Source of the DNA: Myxococcales bacterium | GTDB lineage: Bacteria > Myxococcota > Myxococcia > Myxococcales > Myxococcaceae | Length of the DNA stretch: 64,000 nucleotides | Assembly: GCA_016191815.1 (NCBI GenBank) | Contig: JACPVI010000061.1 | Span: forward strand, 124,001-188,000 | Direction: 5' to 3' | In this document: positions 5,012 to 16,482 of the stretch, piece by piece | Layout of the letters: the number at the start of each line of letters is the position of its first letter | Numbering within the stretch: the first letter of the stretch is position 1 | Notes under the pieces: generated by a model | Told to the model about the DNA's origin: nothing | What the model saw: the letters and a program-made list of their open reading frames with translations, nothing else | Database searches by the model: none | Translations under genes and position numbers: made by a program

Positions 5012-5028
5012 GGGCGCCTCAGGCGCCC
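5012..5028. terminator. Hairpin between convergent genes, possible bidirectional terminator
   Basis: A perfect 7-bp stem (GGGCGCC / GGCGCCC) with a 3-base loop. The loop (5019-5021) is the stop codon of the minus-strand reductase gene. There is no T-run on either side, so intrinsic termination is uncertain. Confidence 0.4.
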
Positions 5029-7193
5029 GCGGGAAGGGAAAACACCAGCCGGCTGCGCTCGCCGCCAGGGGACCTTTCGATGGCTTCGAGCAGCGTCGCC
5101 GCGCCTTGGCCCGCCAGTGGCTCCAGCAGGTGGATGACGGTTGAGATCGCCTTCAATCCCTCGAGTGGCTTCTCCTCGAGGCTGGGCCGGGCCCGCTGCA
5201 CCAGTGCTTTGGCCCCGGCGTCGCCGGTGTGGGGCAGATAGACCAGGAACTTCGCCGGCGAGACCCGGCAGCCGAAGTCGTCGCTGCGAGTGAGCGAGAC
5301 CAGCGCCGAGGTGAACTCCGCCAGCGCCAGCTCCGAGGGCGGCGAGTCGCCCTGCCACTCCAGGCAGATCTCCAGGATGGAGCATTGGAGCTTGTGGCGG
5401 CGAGCCCGGTTGAGCTCGGCGTCCATCCGCGCAATGAATTCCGCAAGCGGCACCAGCCGGGTGTTCCGTCCGGAAGAGATGCGCGCGCCCTGCTGGGCGC
5501 TGCGCACCATGATCGCGGCGTTGCGCGACAGCAGGCTGAGAAGCGCAAGGTCCTGCCCGGTGAAGACTTCTCCTTCGCCGAGCCGGTTCAGCACCTGGAT
5601 GGCGCCTATGGCCCGGCCTATCCCCGGCAAGGGGCTGCAGATCATCGATCGGGTCTGGAAGCCGGTCTGCTTGTCGGCGCTCGAATTGAAGGCGGCGTGC
5701 GCCCGGGCGTTCGAGACGATTTGCCCGATCCCGCCGGAGATCACCTCGCCGACGATGCCGGTGCCAATGGGGACGCTGAAGCGGGCGAGCTGCTCTCCCG
5801 CCGGGCCCACAGAGGCCTCGCAGACGATCCGTTCTCCGTTGGCGTCCACCAGCCACAGCGAGGCCGCCTCCGCCTTGAAGGCCCGCACCATTCGCCGGAG
5901 CAGTTGCCGGAAGAACCCCACCAGGTCCGCGCTGGCGTCGATGGCCTCGGCCAGCTCGTCCAGCATGGTGAGCTGGGCCAGCCGCTGGCGGAATCCGCTC
6001 CGGACCAGCCGCAGCTGGATGTCGGCGTCGCCGATGGGCTCCCCGAAGGAGCGCAGGTGGGCCAGCTTGAAGCCGTGCCTGGCCGCCACGGCGCTCAGCT
6101 TCTGCACCCGCTCGGTGGAGAAGTTGACGATCTCCAGGCCGCGCTCTCGCTCGTTCTCGAGAGCCAGCAGCATCGTCTCTCCGATGCACGCATAGACGAC
6201 GCCGGGCGGCACCCCGTAGTAGGGGTGCATGGTGCGGGCGGTGAAACCGCCGGGAACCTCCACCAGCCCGCCGTCGATCACCAGCACGTCGTCGCGCGCC
6301 GAGGCCACGTCGCGGCTGACGTTGGTGGGCCTGGAGACGTCGCAGACCACCGAGCCGGTCGCGAGGTGGTGCGGGGCCACCAGCGCCTCCGGGCTGCTGG
6401 TGGCGAGCAGCACCACGTTGGCCTCCGAGAGGGCCTCCTGCAGGTCGGTGGTGACGTGCACCTCGCGCCCGGTCTCACGCCGGATCTTCTCCGCCTTCAG
6501 GGCCAGTCTCTCCTTGGTGCGCGCCACCAGGCTCAAGGAGCAATCGACGTTGCGGGCCAGGATTTCCGCGCAGACCCCTCCGATGGAGCCGGTGGCGCCT
6601 ACCACCGCGATGCGGCAGGAGCCGAGGTCGATGCCCATCTTCAGCGCGCCCGCCTGGACGCCTTCCAGCGCCATGGCTGCGGTCAGGCAGTTGCCGGAGG
6701 TGACGGTCAGGGCAAGCTGCTCCTGGAGCTGCATCGGAATGCCCGGCGGGAAAATGGAGGTGTAGCCACCCAGGCCGAGCACCGAGGCGCCCAGCCGCTC
6801 CGCCACGTGCCCCACCTGGACGATGCGCTGGGCCACCACCTTGCCCGGCAGGGTGAAGTGCTGCTCGGGAAGCAGCCAGGTGGAGATGAGGTAGCCCCGG
6901 ATCACGTCCCCGGTGTGGGACCTGATGTCCTCGATCACCGCGGTCACCTGCGGCGGAAGCCAGAGGAGCACCTTCTCCATGAACTCGCGCCGCGCCGGGG
7001 TCAGCTCCGAAGGAGACAGCAGCCAGCGCTCGATCTGTTCGGGCAGCGTCCGGAGGTAGTCCAGGACCTCCGCGGCCTGAGTCCATTGCGGAGCCAGGCT
7101 CTCCAGCTCCTCGTAGCGCTCGCAGAGGAAGGGAACGCAGTGCAGCGCCTCGCGCGGCGTGGCGGCGTTGTAGGCCCACGCAAAGGTCCTCAT
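5019..7193 (-). CDS. Acyl-ACP reductase (AAR-like) fused to GAF and degenerate GGDEF-like domains
   Basis: A 724-aa protein with an ATG at 7193 that shares ATGA with the stop of the upstream fabZ-like gene. Residues 1-380 resemble cyanobacterial long-chain acyl-ACP reductase, which reduces acyl-ACP to fatty aldehyde with NADPH. It has the LGLGGYTSIFPPG segment (138-151), LTVTSGN (162-168), the Rossmann motif VVGATGSIGG (197-206) and Cys336 in VYACIGE, where the family has its acyl-thioester cysteine. Residues about 415-565 look like a GAF domain. Residues about 575-710 follow a GGDEF fold outline (RSDDF...R...F..YLP), but the signature loop reads SPAKF, so cyclase activity is not expected. 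Cyanobacterial AAR is about 340 aa, so the C-terminal half is an added sensory module. The reductase call is good; the chain length and use of the aldehyde are unknown. Confidence 0.8.
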   Translation of the reverse strand: MRTFAWAYNAATPREALHCVPFLCERYEELESLAPQWTQAAEVLDYLRTLPEQIERWLLSPSELTPARREFMEKVLLWLPPQVTAVIEDIRSHTGDVIRGYLISTWLLPEQHFTLPGKVVAQRIVQVGHVAERLGASVLGLGGYTSIFPPGIPMQLQEQLALTVTSGNCLTAAMALEGVQAGALKMGIDLGSCRIAVVGATGSIGGVCAEILARNVDCSLSLVARTKERLALKAEKIRRETGREVHVTTDLQEALSEANVVLLATSSPEALVAPHHLATGSVVCDVSRPTNVSRDVASARDDVLVIDGGLVEVPGGFTARTMHPYYGVPPGVVYACIGETMLLALENERERGLEIVNFSTERVQKLSAVAARHGFKLAHLRSFGEPIGDADIQLRLVRSGFRQRLAQLTMLDELAEAIDASADLVGFFRQLLRRMVRAFKAEAASLWLVDANGERIVCEASVGPAGEQLARFSVPIGTGIVGEVISGGIGQIVSNARAHAAFNSSADKQTGFQTRSMICSPLPGIGRAIGAIQVLNRLGEGEVFTGQDLALLSLLSRNAAIMVRSAQQGARISSGRNTRLVPLAEFIARMDAELNRARRHKLQCSILEICLEWQGDSPPSELALAEFTSALVSLTRSDDFGCRVSPAKFLVYLPHTGDAGAKALVQRARPSLEEKPLEGLKAISTVIHLLEPLAGQGAATLLEAIERSPGGERSRLVFSLPAGA

Positions 7194-7624
7194 GCCGAGC
7201 CCACCTGTCCGAAGGAGAGCCTTCCGGAGGCGACTTCGACTTCGCCGACGCGGCAGACCACCTCGGCGATCGCCGCGGTGCTCACCACCTTGTCGGCTTT
7301 GGCGGTCACCACCAGCTGATCCCCGGGCCGCACGGGAGAGCGGAAACGGAAGCGCTCCACCCGGCCCAAGGCATAGAGGGGCTTGGGCGAGGGGTGGCCC
7401 GCGAGCATCATCAGGCAACAGGCCTGCGCGGCCGCCTCGATCATCAGCACTCCGGGCATGAGCGCCCGCCGGGGAAAGTGACCCTGTACGAAGGGCTCGG
7501 TCCCAGTCACGTTCTTCAGCGCAGTGATTGACTGTCCCGGAACCACTTCCACTGCGCGGTCAATCAGCACGAATGGGTAGGCATGGGGAAGCAGCGCGCA
7601 GATCTGGTCGAAATCGAGGGTCAT
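7190..7624 (-). CDS. fabZ: 3-hydroxyacyl-ACP dehydratase, FabZ-like hotdog protein
   Basis: A 144-aa protein from the ATG at 7624 (MTLDFDQI). Family hallmarks are HAYPFVLIDR with the catalytic His, GHFPRRALMPGVLMIEA with the catalytic Glu, and a following AAQ. It would dehydrate 3-hydroxyacyl-ACP to trans-2-enoyl-ACP. The stop overlaps the start of the acyl-ACP reductase (ATGA), so the two are translationally coupled. An ACP gene lies 204 bp upstream in the same direction. This looks like a dedicated copy for a specialised acyl chain, not the housekeeping fabZ, which usually sits with lpxD/lpxA. An upstream in-frame ATG at 7666 adds 14 residues that look unrelated to the family. Confidence 0.87.
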   Translation of the reverse strand: MTLDFDQICALLPHAYPFVLIDRAVEVVPGQSITALKNVTGTEPFVQGHFPRRALMPGVLMIEAAAQACCLMMLAGHPSPKPLYALGRVERFRFRSPVRPGDQLVVTAKADKVVSTAAIAEVVCRVGEVEVASGRLSFGQVGSA

Positions 7625-7828: not shown

Positions 7829-8083
7829 TCAGCTACCGCGCTGCGCCATGTACTTCTGCGCGACGGTGATCGATTGCCGCAAGCTGGTGAGCTCCTTGAG
7901 GTCGCGCTCCTCGAGCTTCACCTTGAAGGTCTTCTCCACTTTCGCGGCGATCTCCAGCAGCAGCATCGAGTCCAGGTCGAGCTCCTTGATGAAGTGAGCG
8001 TCCATGGTCACCGCCTCGGGCTCGATCTCCGCGGCCTCGGCGATGATTTTTCGCAGTGTGTTGGTGACTTCGTTAGTGTCCAC
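7829..8083 (-). CDS. Acyl carrier protein
   Basis: An 84-aa acidic protein. The GTG start at 8083 is preferred because GGGAGG lies just upstream on the minus strand. The phosphopantetheine attachment motif is LDLDSMLLLE, with Ser in DSM. It would carry the acyl chain as a thioester on the 4'-phosphopantetheine arm. It heads a same-strand set with the FabZ-like dehydratase and the acyl-ACP reductase, so it is probably the dedicated carrier whose acyl group those enzymes process. A longer reading from 8137 adds residues unlike ACP. Confidence 0.9.
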   Translation of the reverse strand: MDTNEVTNTLRKIIAEAAEIEPEAVTMDAHFIKELDLDSMLLLEIAAKVEKTFKVKLEERDLKELTSLRQSITVAQKYMAQRGS

Positions 8084-8277
8084 GGTTCCCTCCCAGGAAC
8101 CGCACCACTCTGTCACCGATCGGCGCGGTCCGTCCACCGTCTTCTGTCGGAGGCGAGACGCTGATCGCCCGCAGGGTCGCTCACCGGCGGGACGGCTCTG
8201 CGTGAGCGGAAAGCAGCCCTCGCGACTTGATGGTAACCTCCAGCCGCCATGAAGCCGACCTTCGAAAGGGACCGATC
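8084..8277. promoter_or_regulatory. Divergent intergenic region upstream of ACP operon and the 8278 gene
   Basis: These 194 bases separate the ACP operon (minus) from the next gene (plus) and should hold both promoters. On the plus strand TTGATGGTAACCTCC (8227-8241) lies about 40 bases ahead of the start at 8278. No clear inverted repeat was found. Confidence 0.35.
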
Positions 8278-8751
8278 ATGGCGGAGCTCCCGCTTCCCAG
8301 ATTCTCGGAGATCATCGCCCGCAGTATCGCCACCGCGACGTTCGTGGACACGGTGGAGCTGCTGTTCAAGGCGCTAGCGGAACGTGCCGACTCCGAGGAG
8401 CTGCGTGAAGTGCTCTACCGCGCCTTCTACGAGCGCGGCAAGCGGCTGGGAGAGAAGGCGCCGCTCGAGCGGCTTGGCTTGAGCTCCGACGCGATGGGCA
8501 TCGCCGTCTTCCCCCACCTCTCGGACGAGGGGATGCAGATCGAGGGCACCATCGTCGAGGCCAGCCCGACCAGGGTCGTGAAGGAAGTCACCAAGTGCCC
8601 GATGCAGCACATTTCCGCCGACCTGTGCCACGCCTATGACGGAATGATGCTGGGGATGGTGGAAGGGATGAACCCCGCCTACAAGTGCTCGCTGCCTCAG
8701 TGCCTCTCTCGAGGCGATTCCGTTTGCCGGGTGGTGGTCGAAAAGAAGTGA
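8278..8751 (+). CDS. Small Cys-containing protein resembling the ATC-hydrolase-like / V4R-like family
   Basis: A 157-aa soluble protein. The start at 8278 has AAAGGGA upstream. The N-terminal half is helical. The C-terminal half carries CPMQHIS, then CSLPQC, then a final GDSVCRVVV. This spaced-cysteine pattern is seen in the L-2-amino-thiazoline-4-carboxylic acid hydrolase-like family (PF14196) and related small-molecule or metal-binding domains. It has no signal peptide or membrane segment. It is divergent from the acyl-ACP reductase operon and could sense a metabolite for it, but that is only context. The family call is tentative. Confidence 0.55.
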   Translation: MAELPLPRFSEIIARSIATATFVDTVELLFKALAERADSEELREVLYRAFYERGKRLGEKAPLERLGLSSDAMGIAVFPHLSDEGMQIEGTIVEASPTRVVKEVTKCPMQHISADLCHAYDGMMLGMVEGMNPAYKCSLPQCLSRGDSVCRVVVEKK

Positions 8752-11202: not shown

Positions 11203-14200
11203 ATGGTGTTACCATCGCGGGCCATGTCGGTTCCGGCGTCCGCCGCTTTGGAAGCGGCCCTGCCTCCACGGGAGCCGATCGGGGGGCGGTACCTACTCCA
11301 CGAGCAACTGGGGGCGGGGGCGATAGGAGTGGTGTACCGCGGGAGCGATCGGGAGCGGGGCGGGGAGCCGGTCGCAGTCAAGCTCATCGACCTCAGGGCG
11401 TTCGAGGCGCCCGACGACTACGCCCTGCAGTTCCGCCGCCACTCGCGGGCGCTGGCCAACCTTTCCCACCCGAACGTGGTGCGCACCCTGGACTTCGGGA
11501 AGTCCGGGCACCTGCTCTGGCTGGTGATGGAGCACTACCCGTCGGTGACGCTGCGGCGGTTCCTCTCCGAGCGCGGCGCGCTGGAGATTCCACTCGCCCT
11601 GGCGATCGTCGCGGAGACGGCGAAGGCGCTCGAGCACATCCACGGCTTCGGGCTCATCCACGGCGACCTCTCGCCGAACAACATCCTGGTGCGCTTGGAG
11701 GGCGAGCGGCCGCGGATCGCCCTCATCGACTTCGCCCTGGTCGCGCCGGATCAGCTCCTCCTCGAGGCCTCCGCCAACGGGATTGCCGGCACCGCCCACT
11801 ACATCGCTCCCGAGCAGACCGGCGGGGTGGACATGGGCGTCGACGGGAGGGCCGACCTGTACTCGCTGGGAGCCACCTTCTACGAGCTGGTGACGGCCGA
11901 GCGCCCCTTCACCGGGGCGAGCCTGAGCGAGATCCTCCACAAGCACCTGGTGGAGCGCCCCTCGCCCCCCTCCTCGCGGCGCAAGGAGCTTCCGGCCAGC
12001 CTCGACGCGGTGGTGCTCAAGCTGCTCGCCAAAGACCGCGAGGAGCGTTACCAGTCGGCCTCCGGGCTCTTGCACGACCTCTCCGAGGTCCAGGCCGCCC
12101 TCGAGCGGGGCGAGCAAGGGCCGATCGAGATCGGCCGTCAGGACTTCCGCCGCGACCTGAGCGCCCTCAACCAGCTCTACGGCCGCCAGGCGGAGGGTCA
12201 GCTCCTCCGCGAGTGGCTCACCGAGGCGGCCCATGGCCGCGGCGGGTGTTGCTTCCTCTTGGGGTCGCCCGGGGTCGGGAAGACGACCTTGGCGAGGGAC
12301 ATCGCCGAGCAGGCGGTGAAGTCGAACGGAGTCTACCTGGTGGGCAAGTGCGACCCGCTGCTCCAGGAGCAGCCGCTCGCCCCGCTCCAGGCGGCGCTGG
12401 GCACGCTCTTCCGGTCGGTGCTTTCGCGCCAGAAGGACCAGACGCAGCGAATCCTCAAGAGGCTGCGCGAGCAGGTGGGCGAGGTGGGGCAGGCGCTCGC
12501 GGCGCTCATCCCCGAGGCGGCGCAGGTCTTCCCGGGCGCGACCGAGGTGGGGGCGCTCGCCTCGGCGGAGGCCCAGAACATCCGCCTCTTCCTCGCGCTG
12601 GGGCGGGTGCTCAGGGCGGTCGGCGAGGAGGGCCGGCCGCTCTTGCTGCTGCTCGACGACGCCCAGTGGGCGGACTCCACCACCGGGGAGTTCTTGCCCT
12701 ACCTGCAAAGGAACGTCTCCGACGGCCACCTCTTGGTGCTGGTCACCTCCCGGAGCGAAGGCGGCGAAGTGGCCGGTCCCCTCGGGGAGGCGATCCGCTT
12801 CGCCGACGCCACGCGGACCCACGGCGAGGTGCTACACCTCGAGCCGCTCGACCGTCAGACGGTGGGGCTTTTGGTTTCCCGCCTGGTGAACGCCCACGAC
12901 CAGGAGCTGGCGACCCTCACCGACTGGATCTGGCGGCGCGCCAACGGGAACCCGCTCTTCACCAAGGAGGTGTTGAGGCAGCTCATTCGCGAAGGGGCAA
13001 TCTACGCGAGCGACCAGGGCTGGCAGCTCAAGGTGAACATGCTGGAGGGCATCCGGATCCCTCCCACGCTCACCGAGCTGCTGGTCAACAAGCTGGGCAC
13101 TCTTCCGCCGGAGCTCGGAAGCCTGCTCTCCACCGCGGCGGTGCTCGGGAAGGAGTTCTCGGCGGCGGCGCTGGCCCAGCTCACCGAAATGAACCCGGAC
13201 CGCCTGACCGACCTGATCGACCAGGCGACTCGCGAGGGGCTTCTGGAGCGGGCGGCGGGCGGCCACGCCTTCACCAGCGACCAGCTCCGCGACGGGGCCT
13301 ACAACCGGCTCGCCGCCGAGAAACGCGCGGAGACCCACCTCCGCATCGCGAAGATGCTCGAGCCTTTGCGCCGCAAGGGCTCCCTCTTGGACCAGGTCGA
13401 GGTCGCCCACCACTTCATCTTCTCTTTGGACGACGAGCGCGCCGCGGAGCACGCCCTCTTGGCCGGGGAGGCCTGCCTCAAGACGTACGCCAACCGCGAG
13501 GCAGTGCATTACTTCGAGGTGGCCCGGGCCAGGTCCAAGCAAGGGCTCACCCTCGCCGCCGCCGAAAGGCTGGGCGACGCCTACGCGGCCGCCGGCGAGT
13601 TCGCCAAGGCGGTCGAGCAGCACGAGCGGGTCCTCTCGCAGCTCTCCGGCGCGCTCGACCGCGCTCGGGTGATGGACAAGATCTGCAACCTCCTCGACCG
13701 CCAGGGGCGATTCCACGATGCGGCGCGCCTGGGGAACGAAGCGCTGAAGACGCTGGGCGTGAACTCGCCCAAGAGCAGGCTGGGGGTGCTGATCGGCATC
13801 GTGGGGTGGCTGGTGGTGGCGCTCATCGGGGGACGCTGGCCCTGGCTGCTGCCGCGCTTTCGCCGGAAGCGCGAGAAGCGGCTGATCGTGGGGCGCCACC
13901 TCGTGCGGCAGACCCATTCCTACTTCATGATCAACATGGAGCGGTGTACCTACTTCCACCTGCGAGCGCTGGTGCTGCTGCTGCGCCTGGGCCCATGCCG
14001 GGATCTCGCCCGGGTGATGGTGGAGCACGCCTACGTCGTCTGCACCGTCACGCGGATGAGAGGCAGGGCGAAGCGCTTCGCGAAGAACGCGGTGAAGATG
14101 GCTCAGTCGCTCAGGGACGGGGCCATGCAGTCGTACACGCGGGTCATCGAGGCGATGACCTACTACTTCATCGGCGAGCTGGACCGGGCCTTCGAGTTGC

Positions 14201-16482
14201 TCAACGCGTTCAACAAGGTGAACCAAGGCGTGGGCGACCTCTTTTGCCAGATCCTGGCCGACATCCACTTCGGATGGATTCACCGGCTCCGGGGGGACCT
14301 CAGCCAGGCGCGGCTGTACGCGGATCTGGTGCTGGCCAACGGCCAGCTCATCAACGACGACTTTTCGCGGGGAGTGGCCAGGTACATGGACGCCTTGGTC
14401 CGGGCCGCGCAGGGCGACACCCCCGCCGCGGAGGAGGCGGCGCAGGCCGGCCTGGCCCTCACAGCCCCGGACCCGCTCACCCACGCCGCCGCCTGGCGCA
14501 GCAGCGGGGTGGTGAAGCTCTTCCAGGGCGACCTGAGCGCTGCCGCCGAGAGCTTCCGCAAGTCGATGCGCGTGGCCTGGGAGAACTCCATCACCCAGGA
14601 GTACTGGGTCGAGGCCATCTCCGGCCTGGCGGAGGTGGCGGTGCTTCAAAGCCGCACCACCCACCCACCCGAGACGGCGGTCATCGGCCGCGCCCTTCGC
14701 CTGTGTCGGTATGCGCGTTGGGTGCCGCTGCTCTACCCCGCCTATGGGCCGGCAGCCTACCGGGTGAGCGCCATGGCCTACGCCGACAAGGGCGACCAGG
14801 GCCGAGCGCTGCACTTCCTCGAGCGGGCGATCTCCGAGGGCGCCCGGCTCGGGCTGAAGCTGGAGGTGGCGCGAGCGCACCAGCTGTGGGCAGACCTTCT
14901 GCCTGCCGAGGACCCGCGCCGCAAGATGTACTACTCCCTGGCGGGAGCGACCTACCGCCGGCAGGGAGCGGTGGGCCTGCTCCGGAGCCTTCCTCCAGAG
15001 CACCAGGCGGTGGACGACCGCTCCGGCTCCGGCGGCCGGAGCAACCTCGATCGCACCCAGCTCTTCGGAGCCAAGTCGCCGAGTTCCTCGGAGGGTGGCG
15101 GGGTCAAGAAGAGCAGCCTCACCCTCGATCGGCTGGTGCAGATCGCCCAAGAGATTGGCAAGCTGGACGAATCCGAGAAGCTCCAGCGGGAGATCCTCCG
15201 CGTGGCGGCGGAGCAGACCGGCGCCGAGTCGGGCTGCATCTTCCTCTACAACCCGGAGGAGGCCGAGTCGGACCCGGGCCTGCCCAAGGGACTGAGGCGG
15301 GTGGCCAGCTACGCCCAAGGCGAGGCGGCCCCGCCGGTGCCGAGCACCTCCGCCTTGGAGCAGGTCTTGAGAACGCGCAGCCCGGTGGTGGTCGGCGACG
15401 CTCAGGAGGACCTCTCCGGGGCGCGGAGCGTGATGCTGAGCAAGAAGCGCTCGCTGCTGTGCGCGCCGATGGTGGTGGGAGGCCGGCTGGCCGGGCTCAT
15501 CTACCTGGAGAACAACCTCCTCGCGCAGGTCTTCTCCGATTCCGACTTGGAGACGCTGGGGATTCTCTCAGCGCAGGGGGCGATCGCGCTGGAGAACTCC
15601 TCCTACCTCTCCAAGGTCCGAAAGGCGCACCGGAACGAGTACACCCTGCGGCGACTGTTCCAGAGCTATGTCCCGCCCGCGGTGGTGAACGAATTGTTGA
15701 GACGCGGCACCGAGAGCATGCTCAAGGGCGAGCGGCGGCTGGTGACGGTGCTCTTCGCCGACATCCGAGGGTTCACCGGCCTCTCCGAGGAGCTGGAGCC
15801 TGAGCAAGTGCTGGCTCAGCTCAACGAGCTCTTCGCGGCAATCACCGGGGTGATCCACGACTGCCACGGCATCATCGACAAGTTCATCGGCGACGCGGTG
15901 ATGGCGCTCTTCGGCGCCCCCCACTCCCACGGCAACGACGCCCTCAACGCGGTGGCGGCCGGGGTGCGGATCCAGGAGGCGGTAAGGGACATCAACGCCC
16001 GCAACGCGGCGGCCGGGCGGCGGCAGGTGGTGTTGGGAATTGGCATCAACAGCGGGGAGGCGGTGGTGGGGAGCGTGGGTTCCCAGCAGCGGATGGAGTT
16101 CACCGCTATCGGAGACACCGTCAACGTCGCCAGCCGGGTGGAGGCCACCACCGCCGTCTACCGCTCCGGAATCCTGATCACCGAACACACCCGCCAGCAC
16201 CTGGGCCAGGAGTTCGCCCTGCGCCAGCTGGACAGCATCCGAGTCAAAGGGCGGAACAAGCCCGTCAGACTCTTCGAGGTGTGGGGGAAGAGCGAGCAGC
16301 TGACGCCGGACCAGGCGGCGCTGATCACCCAATTCCAGGACGGTTTGACGGCCTACGAGCGTGCGGAGTGGAACGCAGCACGGCTGGCGTTCGAGCAAGT
16401 CATCCGCTCGCGGCCGGACGACGGCCCCGCCCACGTGCTCTTGCAGCGGATTCTCGACCAGCAGCATCGCGACGCCGGATGA
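11203..16482 (+). CDS. Giant signalling protein: Ser/Thr kinase-like, AAA ATPase, TPR, GAF and class III adenylate cyclase
   Basis: A 1759-aa protein (1752 if translated from ATG 11224). Residues about 28-300 are a protein kinase fold with Lys in VAVKLID. The catalytic loop reads HGDLSPNN (Asp155) and the metal loop reads DFA (Asp176), not HRD/DFG, so catalysis may be altered. The ATPase module has Walker A GSPGVGKTT (354-362) and Walker B LLLLLDDAQ near 482. A long TPR-like region follows, with a hydrophobic stretch (IGIVGWLVVALIGG) near residue 866. A GAF domain lies at about 1320-1470. The cyclase at about 1505-1665 has both metal Asp motifs and an intact NVASR. It is a full-length paralog of the truncated gene at 1-2061 and probably links a ligand signal to cAMP. 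A methyltransferase gene follows after 12 bases. Confidence 0.9.
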   Translation: MVLPSRAMSVPASAALEAALPPREPIGGRYLLHEQLGAGAIGVVYRGSDRERGGEPVAVKLIDLRAFEAPDDYALQFRRHSRALANLSHPNVVRTLDFGKSGHLLWLVMEHYPSVTLRRFLSERGALEIPLALAIVAETAKALEHIHGFGLIHGDLSPNNILVRLEGERPRIALIDFALVAPDQLLLEASANGIAGTAHYIAPEQTGGVDMGVDGRADLYSLGATFYELVTAERPFTGASLSEILHKHLVERPSPPSSRRKELPASLDAVVLKLLAKDREERYQSASGLLHDLSEVQAALERGEQGPIEIGRQDFRRDLSALNQLYGRQAEGQLLREWLTEAAHGRGGCCFLLGSPGVGKTTLARDIAEQAVKSNGVYLVGKCDPLLQEQPLAPLQAALGTLFRSVLSRQKDQTQRILKRLREQVGEVGQALAALIPEAAQVFPGATEVGALASAEAQNIRLFLALGRVLRAVGEEGRPLLLLLDDAQWADSTTGEFLPYLQRNVSDGHLLVLVTSRSEGGEVAGPLGEAIRFADATRTHGEVLHLEPLDRQTVGLLVSRLVNAHDQELATLTDWIWRRANGNPLFTKEVLRQLIREGAIYASDQGWQLKVNMLEGIRIPPTLTELLVNKLGTLPPELGSLLSTAAVLGKEFSAAALAQLTEMNPDRLTDLIDQATREGLLERAAGGHAFTSDQLRDGAYNRLAAEKRAETHLRIAKMLEPLRRKGSLLDQVEVAHHFIFSLDDERAAEHALLAGEACLKTYANREAVHYFEVARARSKQGLTLAAAERLGDAYAAAGEFAKAVEQHERVLSQLSGALDRARVMDKICNLLDRQGRFHDAARLGNEALKTLGVNSPKSRLGVLIGIVGWLVVALIGGRWPWLLPRFRRKREKRLIVGRHLVRQTHSYFMINMERCTYFHLRALVLLLRLGPCRDLARVMVEHAYVVCTVTRMRGRAKRFAKNAVKMAQSLRDGAMQSYTRVIEAMTYYFIGELDRAFELLNAFNKVNQGVGDLFCQILADIHFGWIHRLRGDLSQARLYADLVLANGQLINDDFSRGVARYMDALVRAAQGDTPAAEEAAQAGLALTAPDPLTHAAAWRSSGVVKLFQGDLSAAAESFRKSMRVAWENSITQEYWVEAISGLAEVAVLQSRTTHPPETAVIGRALRLCRYARWVPLLYPAYGPAAYRVSAMAYADKGDQGRALHFLERAISEGARLGLKLEVARAHQLWADLLPAEDPRRKMYYSLAGATYRRQGAVGLLRSLPPEHQAVDDRSGSGGRSNLDRTQLFGAKSPSSSEGGGVKKSSLTLDRLVQIAQEIGKLDESEKLQREILRVAAEQTGAESGCIFLYNPEEAESDPGLPKGLRRVASYAQGEAAPPVPSTSALEQVLRTRSPVVVGDAQEDLSGARSVMLSKKRSLLCAPMVVGGRLAGLIYLENNLLAQVFSDSDLETLGILSAQGAIALENSSYLSKVRKAHRNEYTLRRLFQSYVPPAVVNELLRRGTESMLKGERRLVTVLFADIRGFTGLSEELEPEQVLAQLNELFAAITGVIHDCHGIIDKFIGDAVMALFGAPHSHGNDALNAVAAGVRIQEAVRDINARNAAAGRRQVVLGIGINSGEAVVGSVGSQQRMEFTAIGDTVNVASRVEATTAVYRSGILITEHTRQHLGQEFALRQLDSIRVKGRNKPVRLFEVWGKSEQLTPDQAALITQFQDGLTAYERAEWNAARLAFEQVIRSRPDDGPAHVLLQRILDQQHRDAG

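Follow-up and report, generated by a model that had tools for sequence, protein, structure and literature searches.

Why would a thioester reductase share one polypeptide with a GAF domain and a degenerate GGDEF domain, and could a ligand bound there control its output? The gene that raises this question lies in the window, the whole 64,000-nucleotide stretch analysed, on a contig of 275 kb; the Myxococcota genome measures 6.77 Mb and is 98.8% complete.

Architecture of the fusion protein

The gene starts with an ATG at 7193 and its stop codon ends at 5019; there are no internal stops, and the stop-to-stop frame spans 846 aa. The frame and coordinates of the original prediction were correct, and the single open frame rules out a frameshift product. 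The encoded 724-aa protein combines an AAR-fold (acyl-ACP reductase) thioester reductase with a GAF domain and a degenerate GGDEF fold:

5019..7193, minus strand: AAR–GAF–degenerate GGDEF fusion, 724 aa (one uninterrupted frame; Pfam and NCBIfam matches)
6009..7193, minus strand: AAR/PigE-like NADPH-dependent thioester reductase domain, residues 1-395 approximately (profile, PDB and structure matches)
6579..6599, minus strand: GATGSIG dinucleotide loop, residues 199-205 (alignment)
6186..6188, minus strand: Cys336, equivalent of SeAAR Cys294, the acyl-enzyme nucleophile (alignment)
5505..5927, minus strand: GAF domain, residues 423-563 (PF01590, model and structure matches)
5049..5471, minus strand: degenerate GGDEF domain, residues about 575-715 (profile, alignment and model)
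5277..5288, minus strand: R636-S-D-D639, predicted RxxD of a c-di-GMP inhibition site (in register in the alignment)
5247..5261, minus strand: SPAKF, residues 645-649, in place of GGDEF (alignment)
5193..5195, minus strand: R667 in the following helix, third predicted inhibition-site residue (alignment)

Profile searches, PDB matches and structure models bore out the predicted domains, namely an AAR-like N-terminal half, a GAF domain and a GGDEF-like fold. These domain calls stood, while the accompanying view of the reductases as mainly stand-alone cyanobacterial enzymes did not, and the c-di-GMP inhibition-site residues in the dead GGDEF had been overlooked.

The reductase half

Judged by its profile matches, the reductase falls within the superfamily that includes cyanobacterial AAR and PigE/TamH, below the curated cut-off of both. 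TIGR04058 (AcACP_reductase) matched residues 79-376 with an E-value of 1.2e-31 and 110.3 bits, short of its cut-off of 449.7 bits, and the PigE model NF053554 matched residues 87-437 with an E-value of 3.6e-46 and a score of 157.9, short of its cut-off of 850. Sequence matches in the PDB included Synechococcus elongatus AAR (6jzq, E 1e-23) and the PigE entry 4ppm. The two halves were folded separately; the AlphaFold model of residues 1-400 (pLDDT 82, pTM 0.83, first 46 residues poor) matched best to 6jzy, AAR with NADPH and stearoyl (E 1.7e-21, TM 0.77), and second to the carmabin TAD domain, with nothing after that above E 1e-7. Another NAD(P)-binding family was rejected for this half, as the matches to AAR and the carmabin domain surpass those to other Rossmann enzymes by ten orders of magnitude; neither the profiles nor the structure search pointed to one.

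The predicted sequence markers were all present: the LGLGGYTSI segment begins at residue 139, the Rossmann motif GATGSIGG at residue 199, and Cys336 aligns with SeAAR Cys294. Cys336 and the GATGSIG loop are invariant among relatives in the alignment, and the AAR fold, a GxxGxxG loop and an acyl-accepting Cys place the protein within the broad AAR/PigE/TamH superfamily. The roles of the nucleophile Cys and of the NADPH-phosphate arginines are established in SeAAR (PMC7089970); two of these three arginines are kept (the equivalents of SeAAR R189 and R193), and the third, SeAAR R314, is replaced by Val356. A reductase role is supported by the sequence and fold match to AAR, the GATGSIG loop, Cys336 and the two retained arginines, and the fusion protein very probably reduces a carrier-bound thioester.

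The GAF and degenerate GGDEF half

PF01590 matched residues 423-561 above its cut-off (E 8.4e-12), and the domain resembles cyclic-nucleotide-binding GAFs, cAMP-bound Lcd1 among them. Its motif at residues 536-549 reads NR...F...DL, as in cAMP-binding Lcd1; three of the five positions of NKxnFx3DE are exact, and the final Glu of NKFDE is absent. Against the C-terminal part, PF00990 reached 18.8 bits, under its 23.8 cut-off. In the model of the last 140 residues the order of helices and strands fits the GGDEF fold, and the C-terminal half aligns with stand-alone Myxococcota GAF-GGDEF proteins that have an intact RYGGDEF, including an intact GAF-GGDEF protein in the same genome (27% identity to this half, E 1e-21). 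The GAF profile, this alignment and the model give no sign of a known unrelated domain.

SPAKF, proposed earlier as the signature loop, occupies the exact GGDEF position of relatives, and the DxDxFKxxND segment is changed and shortened. Cyclase activity is not expected because of these two alterations, and an active diguanylate cyclase was rejected on both of them together with the PF00990 score. R636xxD639 starts nine residues ahead of SPAKF, which is the RxxD-to-GGDEF spacing in relatives and in WspR, and R667 lies at the position of PleD R390. Only 19 of 58 columns conserved in relatives are kept and 39 are lost; the predicted inhibition site retains three positions of three, the cyclase motif none of ten. 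The chance of keeping all three is about 0.03 and the Fisher value is 0.0035, both counted for one sequence from one genome and after the motif was noticed. By alignment, the C-terminal half derives from GAF-diguanylate cyclases, with the active site lost and the predicted c-di-GMP inhibition site kept in register. The putative ligand site is likely not the GAF alone, as the dead GGDEF appears to keep c-di-GMP inhibition-site residues in the manner of PelD.

Relatives and distribution

GTDB was scanned with two short patterns, which yielded at least 80 loci and may miss rare fusions. AAR-fold relatives occurred in Chloroflexota, Pseudomonadota, Actinomycetota, Myxococcota and others, and the description of these reductases as mainly stand-alone cyanobacterial enzymes had to be abandoned: relatives span several phyla, and aminotransferase fusions are published and were seen here as well. 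The closest relatives among the matches listed are stand-alone proteins of Anaerolineae, Armatimonadota and Eremiobacterota (L069-L091; 38-44% identity), along with a small number from other groups; among remoter ones the fusion partners are aminotransferases, an adenylation-ACP-aminotransferase chain or other domains. In a quick tree the window's reductase had a long branch and sat close to the base of the set, so its exact placement is unsure.

None of the at least 80 GTDB loci listed has a C-terminal extension that would accommodate GAF and GGDEF domains, and no other match spanned both halves in 195 Myxococcota genomes. The AAR model matches nowhere else in the host genome, no plasmid record covered 80% of the query, and in the literature searched no paper named an acyl-ACP reductase together with a GAF domain; the fusions published for this reductase have transaminases as partners. 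The parts are known and their combination is unreported in that literature: an AAR/PigE superfamily member coupled to a PelD-like module, in one genome so far.

Other arrangements were noted among the relatives. One protein (L158:4053-8768, genome G048) carries AMP-binding, PP-binding and class III aminotransferase domains with an AAR-like C-terminus and resembles a one-protein carboxylate-to-amine converter. A possible fusion (L157:4308-7610, genome G192) is an open frame with DUF3419 that shares its stretch with an AAR-like domain match. A 300-aa protein starting VVSVSLGSS and lacking Pfam matches has its gene beside AAR-like ones (L069, L070, L071, L093 and the Anaeromyxobacter-like L010-L013); in several Myxococcota this domain is fused ahead of the AAR domain, and it is a likely partner.

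Gene neighbourhood

Two genes lie directly upstream of the fusion gene on the same strand:

7190..7624, minus strand: FabZ-like 3-hydroxyacyl-ACP dehydratase (profile; GHFP...MPGVLxIE segment)
7829..8083, minus strand: acyl carrier protein (ACP) with a DSM phosphopantetheine serine and a GTG start (profile)

The TGA of fabZ overlaps the ATG of the fusion gene (ATGA), and the three genes appear to form an ACP-FabZ-AAR operon. Elsewhere in the genome lie a single further FabA/FabZ-type gene and several more PP-binding domains, so the neighbouring pair are extra copies. Carrier and dehydratase roles are supported by this position directly upstream, the ATGA overlap and the extra-copy status. No linked aminotransferase adjoins the fusion gene. 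ADO (PF11266) had no match in the genome, with a positive Synechococcus control, which rules out the cyanobacterial alkane pathway.

The flanking region encodes a related pair of proteins that have GAF and nucleotide-cyclase domains (67-2061 and 11203-16482); the latter, of 1759 aa, also has kinase and AAA domains and is TOMM kinase/cyclase-like. Divergent from the ACP gene, 8227-8751 on the plus strand encodes a V4R / ATC-hydrolase-like protein, both Pfam scores being below cut-off; its kinship with the V4R gene found in Anaerolineae was unsupported at E 1e-5.

In 12 of the Anaerolineae loci listed, the AAR gene is followed by one for a receiver-degenerate-GGDEF protein; the next gene encodes a multi-GAF protein in 11 of the 12, and in L075 this multi-GAF protein is a histidine kinase. 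Ahead of the AAR gene, several loci have genes for hexapeptide, V4R, hydrolase, small-GTPase and DUF4388 proteins. The degenerate GGDEFs here are without RxxD, so the clusters support a link between the reductase and degenerate GGDEF and GAF modules, not c-di-GMP as such. The cluster as a whole (L072-L091; for example L075:3648-16903) comprises DUF4388, a Ras-like small GTPase, an alpha/beta hydrolase, V4R, a hexapeptide protein, the AAR-like reductase, the receiver-degenerate GGDEF and a giant protein combining a HisKA domain with some ten GAF domains; it looks like an undescribed signalling-metabolic locus.

Proposed mechanism and alternatives

From directly established features (the domain identities, the catalytic and inhibition-site residues, the loss of the cyclase motif and the gene layout) we infer substrate, product, ligand and control of the fusion protein. 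We hypothesize, with confidence evenly divided, that it is an NADPH-dependent acyl- or enoyl-ACP reductase carrying its own nucleotide-binding regulatory module, possibly gated by c-di-GMP. The neighbouring ACP would carry the acyl chain, and the neighbouring FabZ would dehydrate 3-hydroxyacyl-ACP to 2-enoyl-ACP. Cys336 would accept the saturated or 2-enoyl group as a thioester, which NADPH would reduce to release an aldehyde, possibly a 2-alkenal; the nearest precedent for an enoyl substrate is PigE acting on a 2-octenoyl thioester. The GAF–degenerate GGDEF half would make no c-di-GMP; binding of c-di-GMP to the retained inhibition site is expected, with a cyclic mononucleotide possibly bound in the GAF domain. 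Ligand binding could rotate the GAF against the GGDEF, as seen in PelD (PMC8461298), and the changed dimer geometry or active-site access could switch the reductase.

A regulatory role is supported by the cyclic-nucleotide-like GAF, the contrast between intact inhibition site and lost cyclase motif, and the likeness to PelD; the Anaerolineae AAR genes adjoining degenerate-GGDEF and multi-GAF genes support the regulatory link. Counted against a gated reductase are the single genome, the change of R314 to Val356, the incomplete NKFDE, the Anaerolineae GGDEFs without RxxD and the separate modelling of the halves. Control by some ligand is plausible and could fall either way, and c-di-GMP as that ligand is a tentative suggestion. 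Equally tentative is the complete scheme, in which an aldehyde-forming reductase would be switched directly by c-di-GMP, perhaps with a cyclic mononucleotide, through an attached PelD-like receptor, and a second messenger would set the output of an ACP-FabZ-reductase line.

The reductase may instead work free of ligand control, beside a C-terminal half that is a dimerisation scaffold or a decaying diguanylate cyclase remnant acquired in a chance fusion. The heavy loss of conserved GGDEF columns, the confinement of the fusion to one genome in both the Myxococcota and GTDB searches, and the common occurrence of dimerisation in GAF and GGDEF domains speak for this; against it stand a frame that is still open, a GAF well over its cut-off, fair model confidence for both C-terminal domains and an inhibition site that survives although the cyclase motif is gone. 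We regard it as a serious minority possibility.

Slightly less likely is sensing by the GAF alone (of cAMP, cGMP or another small molecule), with the degenerate GGDEF as a linker or, like FimX, a GTP binder. The motif shared with Lcd1, a cAMP-activated GAF-GGDEF protein (PMC8846402), and the guanylate-cyclase-domain protein encoded nearby at 11203-16482 favour this reading, but it would leave the inhibition site kept without reason. The gaps in NKFDE also weigh against it, and NR..F..DL motifs are frequent in GAFs of unknown ligand too. Very improbable is a reductase domain that is no longer a real enzyme and instead senses acyl-ACP, signalling by way of the C-terminal half: the Anaerolineae AAR gene does sit among signalling genes (V4R, small GTPase, receiver-degenerate GGDEF, multi-GAF kinase), but here the nucleophile and dinucleotide loop are kept, output activity is lost from the C-terminal half, and the operon adds ACP and FabZ, both metabolic proteins.

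If the gated-reductase reading is true, a reductase joined to a dead cyclase with a retained c-di-GMP site would link a second messenger directly to lipid-derived aldehydes, reactive compounds that may call for tight control, and would offer a self-contained case of a metabolic enzyme under a PelD-like receptor. The Anaerolineae clusters suggest that association of such reductases with GGDEF-like and GAF modules may extend beyond this single fusion.

Comparison with known systems

With cyanobacterial AAR (TIGR04058; S. elongatus, PDB 6JZQ-6JZZ) the fusion protein shares the fold, the GATGxIG loop, the nucleophile Cys and the R189 and R193 equivalents; it differs in its ~30% identity, far under the equivalog cut-off, the replaced R314, the genome without ADO and the added GAF–degenerate GGDEF half. 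The stand-alone Anaerolineae, Armatimonadota and Eremiobacterota proteins are closest among the matches listed but unfused. PigE (prodigiosin) and TamH (tambjamine) likewise join an AAR-like reductase to a second domain and use carrier-bound enoyl or acyl chains (PMC8341465, PMC9594044). Their partner is a class III aminotransferase, whereas the fusion protein has no such domain by Pfam and carries the GAF–degenerate GGDEF module instead.

PelD of Pseudomonas aeruginosa shares the succession of GAF and degenerate GGDEF and binds c-di-GMP via RxxD and one further Arg (PMC8461298), residues with predicted counterparts here. PelD was not among the PDB matches listed, so the comparison rests on motifs and published features. 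PelD has transmembrane helices and serves polysaccharide export, whereas the N-terminal half of the fusion is a soluble AAR-fold domain without such helices; the fusion is therefore not classed as a PelD and is compared with it in working only. Lcd1-type and myxobacterial GAF-GGDEF cyclases (L160:2456-3508, L048, L049 and others) align along the length of the C-terminal half at 24-28% identity, and the GAF motif of the fusion reads as that of Lcd1 does; compared with these cyclases, the fusion has lost the cyclase motif and gained a reductase.
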